64,000 nt of DNA from the NCBI RefSeq assembly GCF_000382125.1, contig NZ_KB907547.1, forward strand, positions 558,001 to 622,000. Direction: 5' to 3'. The DNA is from Eudoraea adriatica DSM 19308. Its GTDB lineage: Bacteria > Bacteroidota > Bacteroidia > Flavobacteriales > Flavobacteriaceae. The notes under the pieces are model-generated. The model was given only the letters and a program-made list of their open reading frames with translations. It had not been told where the DNA came from and did not search any database. Shown piece after piece: positions 28,191 through 34,082 of the stretch (position 1 is the first letter of the stretch; each line of letters starts with the position of its first letter). Both the position numbers and the translations under genes were made by a program.

Positions 28191-30359
28191 CTAAAAGGAC
28201 TGCGGCAATTGTTGTTGCCAGAGTTTGTGGTAGATGCCTTTTCTTTTGTAAAGCTCACTATGTGAGCCTTGCTCCATTACTTTGCCCTTGCTTAGTACTA
28301 CTATTTTATGGGCCCTGAAAACCGTACTCAATCTGTGGGCTATAATCACGGCAGTTTTGTTTGTCTTATTGAAGCTTTCAACCGCCTTTTGGACATAGTT
28401 TTCCGAACTGCTGTCCAGAGAGGAGGTTGCCTCATCCAATACTAAAACTTCCGGTTCTTTGTACATGGCCCTTGCAATGGCAATGCGTTGTTTTTCACCA
28501 CCAGAAAGGGTAGTGCCATTCTCCCCCAGATAGGTATTAAAGCCATTTGGGAGATTTTCGATAAAATCTAAAATGCCAATCCTTTTACAGATATGAATAA
28601 CCCTTTCCATTTCAGGGGCAAATTCACCAACTGCAATATTTTCTATAACGTTGCCTGCGAATAAATCTATTTTCTGTGGAACTACAGAAATTATGTCCCT
28701 TAGACTGCCGTTGTCGACGTGTTTTAAATCAATTTTCCCTATGGAAATAGTTCCTTTTTGAATGGGATACAGATTATGTAATAAAGATATAAGCGTAGAT
28801 TTTCCGGAGCCACTTTCCCCTACTATGGCAGTAATTTTACCCCTGGGGATAACTAAATTTAATTTTTTAAAAACCTCAACCCTGCTGCCATATCTGAAGG
28901 TGACATTTTTGAAATGGATATCGCCATGATTTGGTTTTTTAATTTGAATTCTGTTTTCATCTGCCTCCCTTTCCAGATCCATTATCTCAAATAAGCGCTC
29001 TGCTGCAATCAGGGCATTCTGTATTTCCCTGTTGGATCGGATAAGACCGGCTACCGGTCCTGTAAAATAGCCCACAATGGCATAAAAAGACATTAATTCA
29101 CCCGGCGTAATATTTCTATTTATGACAAAGTAAGAACCGCTCCACAAAAGAATGATGGTAAACAGTTTGGAAATAGAATCACTTCCGGTAGCGGAGAATA
29201 CCGAGTTTAATGCTGAGCTATACGCTGTTTTTAACAAGCTTATAAATTTGGTTTCCGTCTTAATATTGGCAAAGCTTTCCAGCCCAAATCTTTTAATGGT
29301 AGCTACAGCATTAAGGGATTCTACTAACTGACTTTCCAATTCTGCTGATTGTTCCATAATCCTTCGTTCCGTTTTTCTGTTTAGTGAGTTAACAATAAAA
29401 TAAACGGCCGCATAAACCGGAATAACGGTTAACATAATTAATGCCAGTTTCCAGTAGAACGAAAACATAATGCCAAAAGAAAAAATAATTATAAGCACGT
29501 TTACAGTAAGATTTAAAGAAACCCCATTGATAAATGTTCTGATTTTAACTGCATCATTAATTCTTGAAATGATTTCACCAACGCGCATTGTGTCAAAGAA
29601 TTGCTGGGGTAGTTTTAATAGATGTTTGTAATAACCCAGAATAAGGCGAACATCAATCTGCTGCCCTGATTTTATCAAAAAAACATCCTTAAATACCCCA
29701 ATGAGCAGCTGTAAAACCAGCAAAAGGAGCATTATGACACTCAATAGATTTAATAACCTGGTATTGCCACCAATAAAAACGAAGTCGGTTAATTTTTGAA
29801 TGTAAATTGAGGTTGAAAAACCCAAAAGCGTGTATACAACAGCTCCGGCAAAGGCCTGCAGAAGCACCCACTTATGCGGTTTTAAAAGAACCCAGAAGCG
29901 CTTGTAAACCGAGGTTTTTTCATTGCCCCTGGAAAAATTCTCTTCAGGTTGCAGGAGCACCAAAACCCCTGTCCATTCTTTTTGAAACTCTCTATGCGTC
30001 TTTTTTTGGAGCCTGCCTAAAGCAGGATCCATAATAGTAATATGCCGCTTATTTACTTCATAGATTACAATATAATGATGCAATACATCTTTCACCACTA
30101 CATGAGCTATTGTGGGCTTGGGTATTTTAAAAAGGCTGTCGAAATCTCCCCTCACTCCTTTGGCACCAAAACCCAATTTTTGTGCGGCTTCAAGAAGACC
30201 CAAAACATTGGTTCCTTTCTTATCAGTCCCAGCATATTGCCGTATCCTGGCTATAGGCATTTGAAGTCTATAGTGCGAAGCAACAGATGCTAAACAGGCC
30301 GCTCCGCAATCTGTGATATCGTGCTGTTTAATGGTAATTCCTGCCATAAGTTTGCGCAT
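28191..30359 (-). CDS. C39-peptidase ABC exporter for double-glycine peptides
   Basis: 722 aa, three parts. The N-terminal C39 protease has Cys18 in DITDCGAACLA, His95 in VLHHYIVIY and Asp111 in IMDPALG, so all catalytic residues are present. A six-helix ABC membrane domain follows (about 160-450), then an ATPase with Walker A GESGSGKST, signature LSGGEKQR and Walker B VLVLDEATSSLD. Such proteins cut leaders after Gly-Gly and export the core. It is the last gene of a leftward locus with four double-glycine precursor genes and an HlyD adaptor. Met5 is an alternative start. Confidence 0.95.
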   Translation of the reverse strand: MRKLMAGITIKQHDITDCGAACLASVASHYRLQMPIARIRQYAGTDKKGTNVLGLLEAAQKLGFGAKGVRGDFDSLFKIPKPTIAHVVVKDVLHHYIVIYEVNKRHITIMDPALGRLQKKTHREFQKEWTGVLVLLQPEENFSRGNEKTSVYKRFWVLLKPHKWVLLQAFAGAVVYTLLGFSTSIYIQKLTDFVFIGGNTRLLNLLSVIMLLLLVLQLLIGVFKDVFLIKSGQQIDVRLILGYYKHLLKLPQQFFDTMRVGEIISRINDAVKIRTFINGVSLNLTVNVLIIIFSFGIMFSFYWKLALIMLTVIPVYAAVYFIVNSLNRKTERRIMEQSAELESQLVESLNAVATIKRFGLESFANIKTETKFISLLKTAYSSALNSVFSATGSDSISKLFTIILLWSGSYFVINRNITPGELMSFYAIVGYFTGPVAGLIRSNREIQNALIAAERLFEIMDLEREADENRIQIKKPNHGDIHFKNVTFRYGSRVEVFKKLNLVIPRGKITAIVGESGSGKSTLISLLHNLYPIQKGTISIGKIDLKHVDNGSLRDIISVVPQKIDLFAGNVIENIAVGEFAPEMERVIHICKRIGILDFIENLPNGFNTYLGENGTTLSGGEKQRIAIARAMYKEPEVLVLDEATSSLDSSSENYVQKAVESFNKTNKTAVIIAHRLSTVFRAHKIVVLSKGKVMEQGSHSELYKRKGIYHKLWQQQLPQSF

Positions 30360-30420
30360 AAGTGAACAAGATAATGGATGAGGCTGCAGCCAGGCTGCAA
30401 ATTGACCTGAATTAATACGA

Positions 30421-30450
30421 CGAAACCACCTCTGCTATGAAGTGGTTTTC
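30421..30450. other. Hairpin between precursor 1 and the exporter gene
   Basis: GAAACCAC (30422-30429) pairs with GTGGTTTT (30442-30449). On the minus strand, in the direction of the locus, no T run follows, so it could slow read-through or protect a processed end of the precursor mRNA rather than terminate fully. Confidence 0.4.
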
Positions 30451-30480
30451 TTTCTTATTATTTATACCAATCGGATAAAA

Positions 30481-30624
30481 CTACACTGCTAACAATATAA
30501 ATAGGGGATATTTTTGTAAAATTTCCCTGATTTCCGCGCCTATATTACGCCCATTATTATAATCCGTTTTTGTGCCTCCATTAATAGTTTGAAGATCAAT
30601 TGGTCTTAGCTCTTTTATCGTCAT
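30481..30624 (-). CDS. Double-glycine leader bacteriocin-like precursor 1
   Basis: 47 codons. Leader MTIKELRPIDLQTINGG (Gly16-Gly17) fits the class II leader pattern with hydrophobic residues at -4, -7 and -12 before the cut. The predicted 30-residue core begins TKTDYNNGRNIGAEIR, contains a GxxxG motif and ends in a strongly hydrophobic stretch. It shares K-[ST]-D-Y-x2-G-x3-G-x2-I-R with precursor 2. It lies between the CPBP gene and the exporter gene, with repeat element B in front. It looks like a class IIb-type peptide; antimicrobial activity is inferred. Confidence 0.8.
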   Translation of the reverse strand: MTIKELRPIDLQTINGGTKTDYNNGRNIGAEIREILQKYPLFILLAV

Positions 30625-30636
30625 AATTTTTATTTA

Positions 30637-30723
30637 TTAATTAAACATATACTCCAGACCCCATTGCGCAACTGGATGTCCATACCAGCTAAGATCATCA
30701 CATTCACTGCATAAACTCCACAT
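30637..30723 (-). CDS. Possible very small Cys-containing peptide ORF (inside repeat element B)
   Basis: 28 codons starting MWSLCSECDDLSWYGHP; an in-frame Met at 30777 would extend it to 46 codons with two more Cys, overlapping the CPBP 3' end in another frame. The related element A before precursor 4 reads VCGESLDISW at the matching place and then meets a stop and a 2-nt length change. So either B is an intact copy of a peptide whose A copy is broken, or both are non-coding leader elements. Confidence 0.22.
   Translation of the reverse strand: MWSLCSECDDLSWYGHPVAQWGLEYMFN
30661..30713 (-). repeat. Intergenic element B, upstream of precursor 1
   Basis: 53-nt block related to element A (32230-32284). 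Both contain TATGC[AG]GTGAA, then 10 variable nt, then TTAGCTGGTA, then 12-14 nt, then TGCGCAATGG. A CTGG/CCAG pairing is possible in each. B ends 36 nt before the precursor 1 ATG and A ends 38 nt before the precursor 4 ATG, which suggests a shared leader or regulatory function. Confidence 0.65.
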
Positions 30724-30736
30724 AGTACATGATAAT

Positions 30737-31471
30737 TTACAGGCCTGATAGTGCAGGCAAGATATTGTTAAGGCCATGAAATAGACAGGCATAGATAAAA
30801 CCGTATTTAATCCTTATATAGCCGTTTATAGATGCAGATACTAATTGAGGAAACAGGAGTAATGGAAAAAGCAGGAATTTACCAAGTGTTAATTCTGCAA
30901 AATCTAAATGGAGTAATGCAAAAACTATTATAGAAAAATAATAGATCCATCTGAAATTTGCATCCCAAAAATTTGAAAGATTTGAGGAATACCTGTTGGA
31001 TATAAAATAAGTGAGCAGGGCAATTAGAATTGAAATGATAACTCTAACCCATAAGTGTTCTTCAATATCTAAATGCCTTACACGGTAACCCAATCTGGAG
31101 ATAAGGATATAGGATAGTAGTAAAATTGAAATTGATAAATATTTTGGTTTAAAAACAAGTGACAATCTAAATATTGTTTCCTCAAGAATTGGCCCGATAA
31201 TTACCGCATATAACATAAAATTCACAGGTGACATCATTTCCCTGATTTTAGCTGCGGGAGGGTTGTCTAAATCAATCCATGTGGTCACTGTTATAACCCA
31301 TAGTATCAGGAAAAATAAATGGATTAAATAAAATGTTAGAATGGATCTTAGATTCTTTTTTACATCGTAGGATCTGATTAAATTGTTATCCGGTTTCTTT
31401 ACAAAATTGAACACTATTTTTATTTTCCGGACTACAATTTCTTTAAAGGAGATTTTGTTTTGATTATTCAT
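30737..31471 (-). CDS. CPBP (Abi) family intramembrane protease, probable immunity protein
   Basis: 244 aa with about seven membrane helices. The CPBP motifs are EETIFR (residues 97-102), FALLHLDF and HGLNN, the Glu and His residues that bind the metal in this glutamic/metallo intramembrane protease family. In class II bacteriocin loci of Gram-positives, family members protect the producer. Its position between precursor genes 2 and 1 in the same direction fits that role. A terminator lies before it, so it may have its own promoter. Confidence 0.82.
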   Translation of the reverse strand: MNNQNKISFKEIVVRKIKIVFNFVKKPDNNLIRSYDVKKNLRSILTFYLIHLFFLILWVITVTTWIDLDNPPAAKIREMMSPVNFMLYAVIIGPILEETIFRLSLVFKPKYLSISILLLSYILISRLGYRVRHLDIEEHLWVRVIISILIALLTYFISNRYSSNLSNFWDANFRWIYYFSIIVFALLHLDFAELTLGKFLLFPLLLFPQLVSASINGYIRIKYGFIYACLFHGLNNILPALSGL

Positions 31472-31605
31472 AGAGAGCAGGTACTAATAAGGTATTGCTT
31501 AAACAGCGTTATATGATTTAAAAAGGTTGGTATTGGTAACCCCCGTAAATTTCAGAATTTGGTTATATCGGGCAACTATGGCATAAGGTGAATTGGTTAA
31601 ATTGT

Positions 31606-31640
31606 AAAAAAGCCACTCCGGATAACAGGAGTGACTTTTA
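31606..31640 (-). terminator. Intrinsic terminator after precursor 2
   Basis: On the minus strand GTCACTCC, an 8-nt loop and GGAGTGGC form an 8-bp stem (one GU pair), flanked by AAAA and followed by six T. It ends the HlyD / precursor 4 / 3 / 2 transcript 17 bp after the precursor 2 stop. Confidence 0.8.
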
Positions 31641-31656
31641 GAGTCTATAAATCTTG

Positions 31657-31815
31657 TTAACCTCGAACAAGACCAAAACACCAATCCACGATATCAGCAA
31701 AGGTCTGGACACCATGCCTGATATGATTGCCAACTGCATAGCCAAAACCATAGTCGCTTTTGGCGCCGCCATTGATTTCTGTTACTTCGCTTGTTTTTAG
31801 ATGTCTTAGTTCCAT
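31657..31815 (-). CDS. Double-glycine leader bacteriocin-like precursor 2
   Basis: 52 codons. Leader MELRHLKTSEVTEINGG (Gly16-Gly17). The 35-residue core starts AKSDYGFGYAVGNHIR, has a GxxxG motif (GYAVG) and ends with VDWCFGLVRG including a single Cys. The core start matches precursor 1 residue by residue at K, [ST], D, Y, G, G, I and R, so the two are paralogous and could work together. It is the last gene before a terminator in the HlyD-headed unit, 37 bp after precursor 3. Confidence 0.82.
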   Translation of the reverse strand: MELRHLKTSEVTEINGGAKSDYGFGYAVGNHIRHGVQTFADIVDWCFGLVRG

Positions 31816-31852
31816 ATTTATTAAGTTTAAATTGTTATAAAATTCAAATTAT

Positions 31853-32011
31853 TTAATGTTTCTCCACGCCATTGATTCCATCCCAAAATCCATGGGCAAA
31901 ATCGAGACCTCTCCCGGCCATATCGCCTGCCATAAAAGCCAGGAGTTCATACCAGGCAGGTTTATAACCGCCTGTTATATCTTTTAATTCATTCTTATCT
32001 AAATTTTTCAT
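31853..32011 (-). CDS. Double-glycine leader bacteriocin-like precursor 3
   Basis: 52 codons. Leader MKNLDKNELKDITGG is a canonical class II leader with the ELxxIxGG pattern (Gly14-Gly15). The 37-residue core starts YKPAWYELLAFMAGDMAG, is rich in aromatic residues and Gly, has GxxxG motifs (GDMAG, GFWDG) and no Cys. It is unrelated to the cores of precursors 1 and 2 at sequence level. It lies 21 bp downstream of precursor 4 and 37 bp upstream of precursor 2 in one transcript. Confidence 0.83.
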   Translation of the reverse strand: MKNLDKNELKDITGGYKPAWYELLAFMAGDMAGRGLDFAHGFWDGINGVEKH

Positions 32012-32032
32012 GCTATTTGTGCTTTCATTAAA

Positions 32033-32191
32033 TTAGAATAATTCCGTTCCATTCTTAAAACCCTTCCACCAGGCAGATACCGTTCTGCCGACAACTACGG
32101 CCGTATCTGTAATAAACCTTGGTGGTGCCCCGGCAAAGCCACCCTGAACATACTGTAATTCGTAAAAACTCAGTTCTTTTAAATTTTCCAT
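32033..32191 (-). CDS. Double-glycine leader bacteriocin-like precursor 4
   Basis: 52 codons. Leader MENLKELSFYELQYVQGG has the ELxxVxGG pattern (Gly17-Gly18). The 34-residue core starts FAGAPPRFITDTAVVVG and continues with paired Trp and basic residues (SAWWKGFKNG), giving a cationic amphipathic peptide without Cys. It is the first precursor after the HlyD gene, with repeat element A in the 109-bp gap between them. Three consecutive precursor genes have exactly the same length but different cores. Confidence 0.83.
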   Translation of the reverse strand: MENLKELSFYELQYVQGGFAGAPPRFITDTAVVVGRTVSAWWKGFKNGTELF

Positions 32192-32229
32192 CTTATATAA
32201 TTTTCGTTACACATTAAGTTAATAACCCT

Positions 32230-32284
32230 CCATTGCGCACCTGGACGATCTGTTACCAGCTAATATCAAGGCTTTCACCGCATA
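32230..32284 (-). repeat. Intergenic element A, upstream of precursor 4
   Basis: 55-nt block, second copy of the element described at 30661-30713, beginning 16 nt after the HlyD stop. It shares exact 10-mers TTAGCTGGTA and TGCGCAATGG with copy B in the same order. The 2-nt length difference lies in the loop of the possible CTGG/CCAG stem, which fits an RNA element better than a conserved reading frame. Confidence 0.65.
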
Positions 32285-32300
32285 CCACCTGCATACAGAT

Positions 32301-33470
32301 TTAAAATAATTGGTGCGCAAGAGAATTATTAGCCGGATTTAACCAATCATTCATTTTATCATAAAGCAAGTCGAAAAGCGTACGCCTGCTCAACATAAAA
32401 TTTGCGTTAAGGGTCATCCCTTTTTTTAGATTCCCCCTAAAACCGTTTTCTAACAAAAGGTATTTCTGGTCCAAACAGCAACGTACTTTAAACACAGATT
32501 GACCTTCAAGAAATTCAATGTCTTTTCCTATCTCAATTACTTTCCCGCTTGCAAGGCCCCATTGGCTATAATTATAAGCATCTACCTGAAATTTAGCAGC
32601 GAGCTTTTCGGTAATAAGGCCAATATCTGCAGGACTTACATGGCATTCCACCAGCAGGTCTGTATCCGGGGAAATCTGAGCCAGTAAAGTACCTGCCGTA
32701 ATAAAACTTCCCGTTTCCTGTTGCTTTATATTAAGCAATGTACCGCTTACCGGAGCAGTTATCACAAACCTGCTTTTACTATCCAAAAGATGATCATACT
32801 TTACCTGCAACTCTTTAAGGGTGCTGTTGTACTGTGATAGTTCTGCCTGCCATGCATTTTGTTGCTGATTCCTGTGTTGGAATATTTCAGATTTCGCCAG
32901 GTCGTATTCAAATTTGTGATTGTCGTATTCTGCCCTGGCAATTACCCCTCTTTCATATAGCGGCCTATACCGTTCATAGTCACGCTTTATCTTTTGCAAT
33001 CGAATCTGAAGTTCTCCCATCTTTTGATGATAATGCAGGTAACTTTTCCGATACCTGGGCGAAATGATCTCGGAAAGGCCTGCTTTTTTATCCGTTAAAA
33101 GCAGGCTTAGATCATTAATATAGGAACGTGTTTCCCGGGTTTGAAAGACAGTAAGGTTAACTTTCTGGTCAATTCCCTGATCGTTAATCATTAATAGTGT
33201 GTCTCCTTTAGCCACCTCCTTATTGTTGAAAAGTCCGTTGTAAATTACCTGCCCGGAATTTATAAGGCTAATATCCACCCGCTCCATATTAGGTTTAATA
33301 ATCCCCCTGGCCCGGGAAATGACATCTATTTTTACAAAAGGCAGTGCTATAAATACCCCAAAAAGGATAAACAGAAGGATAGAATATATGCCTTTGCTTC
33401 TGGTGCTGTGTTTAAACTGATGTACTTCAGCGGTGTTATCAAGGATCTCCCTGGGAAAAACCTGTTTCAT
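32301..33470 (-). CDS. HlyD-family periplasmic adaptor of the peptide exporter
   Basis: 389 aa. A short cytosolic tail, one membrane helix (about residues 29-48), a lipoyl/beta-barrel segment (SGQVIYNGLF, DTLLMIND), a long alpha-hairpin (about 100-220) and a closing lipoyl half with ITAPVSGTLLNIKQQETG. It links the inner-membrane C39 exporter to an outer-membrane channel, as needed in Gram-negative peptide secretion. It heads the leftward unit containing precursors 4, 3 and 2. No TolC-like gene is in the window. Confidence 0.93.
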   Translation of the reverse strand: MKQVFPREILDNTAEVHQFKHSTRSKGIYSILLFILFGVFIALPFVKIDVISRARGIIKPNMERVDISLINSGQVIYNGLFNNKEVAKGDTLLMINDQGIDQKVNLTVFQTRETRSYINDLSLLLTDKKAGLSEIISPRYRKSYLHYHQKMGELQIRLQKIKRDYERYRPLYERGVIARAEYDNHKFEYDLAKSEIFQHRNQQQNAWQAELSQYNSTLKELQVKYDHLLDSKSRFVITAPVSGTLLNIKQQETGSFITAGTLLAQISPDTDLLVECHVSPADIGLITEKLAAKFQVDAYNYSQWGLASGKVIEIGKDIEFLEGQSVFKVRCCLDQKYLLLENGFRGNLKKGMTLNANFMLSRRTLFDLLYDKMNDWLNPANNSLAHQLF

Positions 33471-34082
33471 AGTTCATTAATGCTAGAAAGTAACCTTTTT
33501 ACGGGTATAGTATCTTTAAGACAATATATCCCCATCAACTGCAAAGAAGGTGCAAAATGCCCGGGAGTTTCAATCAAAATTGTGGTGCCTTAGAAAATCA
33601 TAAACGCCGCTGGATTTAATGAAGTCCTTTTTTGGAATAGTCCACACATGTAGGTGACTATTAAATGGGGATAAAATGCGCCTGAAAGTCCGTTTGCCTT
33701 ACTATTCTGCGGGCATATTAGGTATATTTATCCATATCTTGATTTTATAAAGAACAATACCATATGCATACAGCATCCTAAAAACAGGTTCAAAAGACCT
33801 AGAGAACTGAACGTATTGTATTGATAAAAAGAGAAGGGATTTTCATTATTGTCGGAATCAGAAGATCCTACTGTTATAGTAACCTTACTCTGCTCTTTTG
33901 TTCTTTGGTTATTAACTATATAATTAATCAATGACAAACTTAGGATGGCTATAAGTAGCCCCCCAGAGGTAGACAGGTTCTTAGTGCTTTAGCTTAACCA
34001 CATCTTAGCCTGAGCACTTATCCTTCAATATTTATAGCATCCCAGTTGTATAAAAATTATACCTTTAAAGAAACATCTGCCG
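33471..34082. other. 612-bp intergenic region with no convincing gene
   Basis: Holds the upstream region of the bacteriocin locus on the left and of the DUF6090 gene on the right. One minus-strand open frame (33728-33937, 69 codons, hydrophobic C-terminal half with two adjacent Cys) cannot be excluded, but has no recognisable family. A 37-nt repeat copy lies at 33934-33970. A near -7 box TACCTTTA is at 34060-34067 before the DUF6090 gene. No regulator gene is seen. Confidence 0.5.
33934..33970 (+). repeat. Direct repeat, left copy, before DUF6090 gene
   Basis: 37 nt matching 34841-34877 at 31 positions by my count, without gaps (shared core GCTATAAGTA). The right copy starts at the last base of the DUF6090 stop codon, and this left copy likewise follows a TGA, so it may mark the 3' end of a lost relative. 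Confidence 0.6.

Follow-up and report, generated by a model that had tools for sequence, protein, structure and literature searches.

A class II bacteriocin-type locus in Eudoraea adriatica and a palindromic promoter-like element recurring at related flavobacterial peptide loci

Class IIb bacteriocin peptides act in pairs through GxxxG motifs, and C39 peptidase domains cleave precursors after Gly-Gly (GG) leaders. In lactic acid bacteria, CPBP/Abi proteins are bacteriocin immunity proteins, as in the plantaricin and sakacin loci. The C39 exporter PCAT1 comes from a Gram-positive host. For marine Bacteroidota, we know of no described control of small-peptide operons. The bacteroidetocins of this phylum are peptides with four cysteines, encoded with a thiol oxidoreductase, a transmembrane protein and, in the accessible parts of the two reports, no obvious immunity protein (PMC6671954, PMC8546649). 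Class II precursors in Bacteroidota have already been predicted in number, according to the available portion of a preview article on IIBacFinder (PMC12648078), and two-component predictions with GxxxG appear in the accessible text of another study (PMC13289728). Here we describe a locus in a 64,000-nt stretch of the Eudoraea adriatica DSM 19308 genome (contig NZ_KB907547.1, positions 558,001 to 622,000), hereafter the window; its features are given in window coordinates and all lie on the minus strand. The locus encodes four small precursors (P1-P4), a C39 ABC exporter, an HlyD-type adaptor and a CPBP membrane protein. We propose, with a probability of roughly 0.57, that it makes a class IIb-like multi-peptide bacteriocin, with protection by the CPBP protein and control through a palindrome and a winged-helix regulator. 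The window genome is G000, and other G and L codes label related genomes and loci.

The four leftward open reading frames (ORFs) had been proposed as precursor genes in an initial annotation, and their coordinates and lengths were correct: P4 (32033..32191, 52 aa, core FAGAPP...), P3 (31853..32011, 52 aa, core YKPAW...), P2 (31657..31815, 52 aa, core AKSDY...) and P1 (30481..30624, 47 aa, core TKTDY... with a variable C-terminus). Their GG pairs, placed there between residues 15 and 18, end at residues 17, 17, 15 and 18 in P1, P2, P3 and P4, and hydrophobic residues at -12, -7 and -4 are common to the four leaders. A leader pattern search of the whole window returned four matches, which were exactly P1-P4. 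A second-order Markov null yielded 1.9 matches for every 64 kb (at most 6 in 100) and 0.06 for a stretch of 3.1 kb, so the case for the set rests on clustering and not on number. The locus has adjacent GG-leader precursors, and GxxxG is present in all four cores (at core position 26 in P4, 14 and 26 in P3, 8 and 31 in P2). In alignments with relatives, GxxxG and the GG pairs are retained for P2-P4, and P3 is 81-90% identical in five relatives. The same annotation had called the genes too short for usual gene callers, a doubtful and unsupported remark: Prodigal accepts genes from 90 nt, these span 144-159 nt, and P3 passes the curated NCBIfam model TIGR03949, if narrowly (21.9 against a cut-off of 21.5, a margin of 0.4 bit).

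P4, P3 and P2 are under purifying selection. The ratio of nonsynonymous to synonymous differences (pN/pS) was 0.03-0.41, 0.04-0.36 and 0.21-0.45, respectively, over 15 pairs each. P1 is the weakest member of the peptide set. It is related to P2 and fast-evolving, with pN/pS values of 0.46-0.72 over 10 pairs; the G002 rows were dropped here because that contig stops short of P1 and the match found there is P2. P1 may be a diverging P2 paralogue, perhaps a specificity variant or an inducer. Alternatively, it could be a decaying pseudogene copy without a role, as its high ratios and the unrelated C-termini would suggest. On the other hand, five genomes retain its leader, the beginning of the core, which includes DYNNG, and a promoter element of its own. 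We regard decay as a real possibility, short of even odds.

Several observations weigh against the peptides being bacteriocins. P1, P2 and P4 passed no curated bacteriocin model, searches of solved structures with the P3, P2/P1 and P4 profiles gave chance-level matches only and no solved bacteriocin, and the cores are near neutral, with net charges of -2 to +2. As to other peptide classes, a model for GG-leader ribosomally synthesized and post-translationally modified peptides of the radical SAM-modified type, TIGR04149, reached 12.3 bits against 25 with P3 and gave no match with P1, P2 or P4. P2 has one cysteine and the other cores have none.

The export genes proved to be as first annotated. 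The C39 peptidase-containing ABC exporter (28191..30359, 722 aa) passed TIGR01193 (530.9 bits, cut-off 523.85) and PF03412 (124.9 bits), and Q12, C18, H95 and D111, three of which had been reported as intact (Cys18, His95 and Asp111), do not vary in an alignment of 11 sequences that includes the window's. The window genome has no other C39 match. The exporter's closest solved structure is PCAT1 (4ry2), with homology over residues 8-716 (E 2e-165), and likeness to homologue starts places its own start probably at Met5 (30347). The HlyD-type periplasmic adaptor (32301..33470, 389 aa) scored 54.3 bits with PF13437 (cut-off 22.2). Among the eight scanned ORFs of 28191-33470 there was no thiol oxidoreductase, nor did the locus genes show an outer-membrane channel.

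Each of the four GG leaders has a counterpart at the corresponding position in genomes of the genus. The initial annotation had named the lack of such conservation among the results that would refute its reading, and this outcome did not arise. The order HlyD, P4, P3, P2, CPBP, P1, exporter is common to G000, G001, G003, G006 and G009, and G002 keeps it from HlyD through CPBP up to the contig end. Counting the window, six genomes of the genus have P4-P3-P2-CPBP, and it is found in diverged form in two other genera. Of ten genomes in the genus, P3 turned up in six, again with the window counted; G004, G007 and G008, which are 60-82% complete, showed none, and G005 has a 63%-identical exporter with no GG-leader ORF (GG ORF) recognised beside it. 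Across 299 genomes of the family, the P3 profile had no match at E 0.01 beyond the window and G200. In G200 (L218), promoter elements are followed by P4', P3' and P2' (39, 56 and 53 bits with the matching profiles) and CPBP. G204 (L200) has three GG ORFs and then CPBP, with no promoter match; of these, the first counts as P4' by position alone (12 bits), the second is probably P3' (22 bits) and the third clearly P2' (49 bits). The P2 profile, A3, detects relatives in other genera.

A small-ORF search beside related C39 exporters, suggested with the initial annotation, gave a strong strand bias. It covered 80 exporter loci, the best 80 of 576 confirmed loci. In 65 of them there were GG ORFs outside long ORFs, 188 on the strand of the exporter and 3 on the opposite one; counted in the 188 are a few nested starts, copies identical to one another (L077) and four ends of helix-turn-helix (HTH) genes. 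GxxxG was present in 112 of the 188 cores, compared with 66.6 +/- 5.5 (maximum 81) in shuffled cores. An uncultured Aquimarina encodes six tandem 51-aa precursors, identical as proteins, with the P2-like core SEETYNAGHAAG... (L077:11332-12452), and the start of a similar array stands at a contig end in another Aquimarina (L083). The L131 locus, with a 62%-identical exporter and GG ORFs, lies on a contig labelled as a deltaproteobacterial metagenome-assembled genome, reflecting either transfer or mis-binning.

Because the GG leaders are conserved, the cores carry GxxxG, selection is purifying and both a dedicated exporter and a candidate immunity gene are present, assignment of P4, P3 and P2 to a class II bacteriocin type is well supported at the sequence level, with class IIb as the closest subtype. 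The locus had been called a complete class II bacteriocin-type system; for these three peptides class II stands, and "complete" was too strong, given the lack of a visible outer-membrane channel and the unlisted CPBP gene at 30737-31471.

Comparison of upstream regions across genera revealed a 34-nt element, in which a palindrome, ACTGCA-N7-TGCAGT, is followed at fixed spacing by TAnnTT[AT]G. Mean complementarity was 0.69 on the palindrome axis and at most 0.28 on other axes, and some lineages have different arms that keep their mutual complementarity. The box agrees with the -7 box of Flavobacterium psychrophilum, TAnnTTTG and TAnnTTGY in the available part of the source (PMC9723704). With the box set at -12 to -5, the palindrome centre falls by arithmetic near -31. 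In the window, the putative promoter element precedes three transcription units: HlyD (33521..33554, TGCAcc-N5-TGCAG..TATATTG, predicted +1 near 33516, position weight matrix (PWM) score 16.1), P4-P3-P2 (32260..32293, predicted +1 near 32255, PWM 20.9) and P1 (30689..30722, predicted +1 near 30684, PWM 19.3). A fourth unit, the exporter, is probably preceded by it as well (TGCAGCCTGGCTGCAG..TATCTTG, 30366..30399). Counting against this last site is its low, sub-threshold PWM score of 6.3, and its assignment rests on orthologues: sites at the exporter position score 10.6 (L042), 22.1 (L044) and 22.5 (L045), with none of 10 or more in L043. At the HlyD position, scores elsewhere were 12.0-22.8 in L042-L045 and 28.0 in L053.

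The P1 site lies in a stretch of about 92 nt that repeats the region upstream of P4. A sequence-only model of this stretch, R1, matched two places in each of the six locus-bearing genomes, and its weaker matches in other genera were mostly upstream of GG ORFs; one match inside a long open frame (G002:C24) was taken as chance. The P4 element stands upstream of P4 in six genomes, with own-genome E values of 1.9e-24 (R1) and 0.04 (model R2). The three window sites are the best R2 matches of their genome (E 0.004-0.08), P1 being the top match (E 0.004) and HlyD matching at G000:C2:591521 (E 0.08). Two weak R2 matches, L178 and L179 (E 0.016 and 0.022), had no GG ORF. Earlier readings of the repeat were a precursor in decay, a short ORF and a structured RNA; no RNA structure was supported over the Eudoraea copies, and the multi-genus comparison gave the promoter palindrome instead. 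An early enrichment of the 8-mer GGTGTTCA turned out to be leader coding sequence, after which the ORF starts were extended upstream. A sigma-70 promoter scan was uninformative (14 found, 20.5 expected).

Within the 80 exporter loci, 81 sites scoring at least 16 lay on the exporter strand and one on the other, with none in the Markov null. They are spread over 32 loci, with 58 before GG ORFs, 19 before exporters, 3 before HlyD genes and 1 before an ORF with a GS leader, and random same-strand positions preceded a GG ORF in 93 of 1280 cases. For the 77-site set, sites scoring below 18 or too close to an end were omitted; the hand-picked set A8 comprises 48 of these 77 and three window sites. 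As the PWM was trained on exporter loci, we sought the element elsewhere. In 12 whole genomes there were six off-locus matches with E <0.01 (the six have E <0.003), all in two Sinomicrobium genomes and all six before a GG-leader ORF; the exporter loci of both genomes had belonged to the training set. These orphan precursors (L172-L177, with L175 very short) are distant from the exporter locus and were found solely through the element. In the 299 family genomes, the element gave 12 matches at E 1e-4, spread over 11 genomes; nine of the 12 have a GG ORF no farther than 330 nt away, compared with 37 of 2160 positions drawn at random from other loci. Some points tell against a general link between element and peptide genes: the PWM was refined on the very loci in which it was counted, three of the 12 family-wide matches lack a GG ORF recognised by the regular expression, four repeat training loci (L182, L191, L189 and L190), and the window genome has no match at E 1e-4.

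Many of these loci also encode a small HTH protein. The HTH_11 family matched 6 of 55 neighbour ORFs, that is, 54 of 86 listed plus the window CPBP, after HlyD-size ORFs and near-duplicates had been removed by hand. With the HTH protein beside the G002 exporter as query, we found 65 proteins (self included, E <1e-6) in 56 of 89 loci, and in 49 of the 80 exporter loci. G002 (L048 and L053) has a second, different exporter locus, with two other GG precursors and an adjoining GG-tailed HTH gene, besides its window-type cassette at a contig end. The gap between HTH gene and GG ORF was below 190 nt in 29 of 54 cases with a downstream GG ORF. An HTH gene is present in 28 of the 32 element-bearing loci, and the element starts within 400 nt of the HTH stop in 25 loci and overlaps the gene end in 20. 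Where the two overlap, the element is read in different frames (LQGLCS in L060, TARLLQ in L078, TPMQLEW in L058), and we conclude that it is conserved as DNA. Twenty-six of 35 HTH proteins matched PF08279 (HTH_11) at E 0.01, the first member scoring 23.7 against a cut-off of 25. AlphaFold gave a winged helix (H-H-H-E-E) over residues 11-70 with a predicted local distance difference test (pLDDT) score of 93-96, and the best Foldseek matches of the model were NiaR, BirA and IclR, all weak (E >=0.012). Among the 299 family genomes, 39 have the regulator, 94 a C39 exporter and 28 both (Fisher 3e-8, uncorrected for kinship). All 11 element genomes have C39 and 9 of 11 the regulator, a count that is not independent, because the element overlaps the HTH gene.

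In 28 of the 65 HTH proteins, the C-terminal part contains a full GG-leader motif (L at -12, E/D/Q at -8, hydrophobic residues at -7 and -4, GG) and then a short tail. Shuffled sequences gave a mean of 0.005, and 2 of 889 other ORFs of similar size carried the motif. We tentatively put forward, at rather less than even confidence, that these proteins form a new class of exporter-coupled transcription factors, whose C-terminal GG leader is genuine and is bound or cut by the bacteriocin-maturing C39 peptidase. A rival we take about as seriously, likewise below evens, is that the GG is a structural Gly-Gly turn or a gene-fusion relic unconnected to the exporter. Thirty-seven of the 65 proteins lack the strict motif while 48 have some GG in the C-terminal part, several members have AG, and the motif was defined after the sequences had been seen. 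AlphaFold draws the GG as a strand end in a low-confidence stretch (pLDDT about 45-60; residues 93-111 below 50). The strict matches, near-duplicates included, and the low shuffled mean argue against a mere turn, as does the scarcity of the motif in the comparison set of 889 ORFs, which includes many non-coding frames. For the Eudoraea locus itself, a role of the regulator is weakened by three facts: no regulator gene is present in it, the homologue of the window genome is unlinked (G000:C3:202160-202441, 94 aa) and has RG for GG with a four-residue tail, and G009, which carries the locus and is 81% complete, yielded no regulator homologue. If the exporter-coupled class is real, transcription from the palindromic promoters would be tied to export capacity, or the tail would be released as a signal; an export-tagged transcription factor would be a direct molecular link from secretion to gene expression.

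The candidate immunity gene of the locus encodes a CPBP/Abi (Rce1-like) membrane protein (30737..31471, 244 aa; PF02517 25.6, cut-off 22.4). Residues E97, E98, R102, H188, H232 and N236 are invariant in six sequences; EExxxR, FxxxH and HxxxN-type motifs mark the family. The protein scored 51 bits with the nearest NCBIfam equivalog, whose cut-off is 220 bits. PF02517 was the commonest family among the scanned neighbour ORFs (20 of 55, window CPBP counted). CPBP occurs in 15 of the 80 exporter loci, always on the exporter strand, with GG precursors up to 1.5 kb upstream in 11 of the 15. In Tenacibaculum aiptasiae (L076:5472-6222), a CPBP homologue after P3'/P2' relatives is split over two overlapping frames, either broken or a sequencing error. 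The CPBP profile matched 30 of the 299 family genomes at E 1e-8. An immunity role is made less certain by the flanks of these relatives: besides G200, 9 of 10 in other genera (L194-L199, L202-L204) have no GG ORF within about 1.5 kb, the tenth being L200, and the six best-scoring ones are among those nine. The CPBP family is therefore not tied to bacteriocins.

From the genes, motifs, conservation and genomic association observed here, we infer bacteriocin activity, immunity, promoter use, regulator binding and cleavage as follows. The C39 ABC exporter, together with HlyD, would export P4, P3 and P2 and mature them by a cut after GG, and their GxxxG helices would associate in the target membrane, while the CPBP protein would shield the producer. 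The HlyD, P4-P3-P2 and P1 units, and probably the exporter, would have sigma-A-type promoters with the 19-bp palindrome as the -33 region, to which a small winged-helix regulator of the HTH_11 kind may bind. The exporter may in turn read the regulator through its GG-leader motif, since 28 of 65 HTH proteins carry it in full.

The same C39 route would also serve cell-cell signals, and the peptides could be such signals and not weapons. C39 exporters also export communication peptides, as stated in the accessible part of one source (PMC7018657), P1 stands apart with its own promoter, and the shared promoters suggest autoregulation. A signalling role nevertheless appears unlikely to us, as a CPBP gene comes directly after the precursors, both in the window and at some related loci, and the precursors are several, diverse and equipped with GxxxG.

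Further elements may accompany the peptide genes as RNA. At many loci, a 5' leader lies between promoter and precursor and opens with a stem, AUCAAAAC/GUUUUGAU. Two types of leader top were distinguished among 105 distinct leaders: a loop with UGC[AG]CA (29) and hairpins with G[AG]CG loops (13 by pattern, of which at least one, L068, is a type-1 variant); the other 63 include exporter and HlyD sites. Set A10 comprises 10 of the 13 GACG-type leaders; in it, 100% of 80 cells of the two hairpins pair, with nine double changes, which 0 of 500 shuffles reached; for the number of pairs showing a double change, 16 of 500 did so. In 23 chosen leaders (set A9: 19 of the 29 UGC[AG]CA leaders plus four look-alikes), 89% of 179 cells of the outer stem pair, with six double changes, reached by 4 of 500 shuffles; for the number of pairs showing a double change, 137 of 500 did so here. 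Inner-stem pairing in A9 was excluded because of register shifts between rows. Folding z-scores of 44 leaders had a mean of -1.3, with 19 below -1.5. Rfam gave one chance-level match (E 2.4) for the window region and none at gathering scores for the loci of eight relatives. The leaders of L060, L062, L066, L091, L125 and L184 show two tandem GACG-type hairpins inside an AUCAAAA/UUUUGAU-like stem, and the tandem GACG-type leader is possibly a new structured RNA.

In the window, likeness to these leaders suggests a 5' leader hairpin of P4 at 32229..32245 (TCCA-GGTGCGCAA-TGGA; as RNA, UCCA-GGUGCGCAA-UGGA). Its sequence CCAGGTGCGCAATGGAGGGTT is identical in six genomes and has related leaders in other genera; folding of the Eudoraea copies alone gave no structural support. 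Downstream of P2, a hairpin with a T run (31606..31638, AAAGTCACT..(stem)..ACTTTTT in six genomes) is a likely terminator or attenuator, and a hairpin 3' of P1 (30422..30449, with letters changed in five genomes) is a possible terminator; both were absent from the automatic scan list. That the palindrome itself is an RNA hairpin or a recombination site marking peptide cassettes, and not an operator, is improbable. In favour of this reading, the arms vary by lineage yet stay mutually complementary, copies precede many cassettes and many 5' leaders look structured. Against it stand the constant distance between the palindrome and a box of the form TAnnTT[AT]G or TTGY, equal to the flavobacterial -7 box in the available text (PMC9723704), the position directly upstream of exporters and HlyD as well, and the Eudoraea copies without structure.

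Finding the small peptides that marine Bacteroidota secrete is difficult, and the operator-like palindrome with its fixed promoter box offers a practical finder of the genes that needs no nearby exporter; it led to the six off-locus genes of the two genomes mentioned above.

Compared with described systems, the locus resembles class IIb bacteriocins (lactobin A/cerein 7B and lactococcin G families) in its adjacent GG precursors with GxxxG, its C39 exporter and accessory protein, its candidate membrane immunity protein and the narrow passing of TIGR03949 by P3. It differs in its Gram-negative Bacteroidota host, in having three conserved peptides plus a fourth and in near-neutral cores, and it is known here from sequence alone. 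Among the titles listed by open-licence literature searches, none concerned class IIb systems of Flavobacteriia. Unlike bacteroidetocins, whose four cysteines are lacking here, it has several peptides with no cysteine or one (in P2) and a CPBP gene. Unlike PCAT1, its exporter is encoded beside an HlyD adaptor. As with CPBP/Abi immunity in lactic acid bacteria, an Rce1-like membrane protein stands beside bacteriocin genes, here as a candidate only. Class II bacteriocins of Bacteroidota are already known, and the locus adds a new member to a known kind of system. The shared promoter, the leader RNA and the GG-tailed regulator go unmentioned in the available portion of the IIBacFinder preview article (PMC12648078), and the accessible text of a mining paper mentions an HTH gene in one Bacteroidales cluster (PMC10352776). 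Set against these sources, and for the regulator also against Pfam and NCBIfam, the promoter, the leader RNA and the GG-tailed regulator look new.

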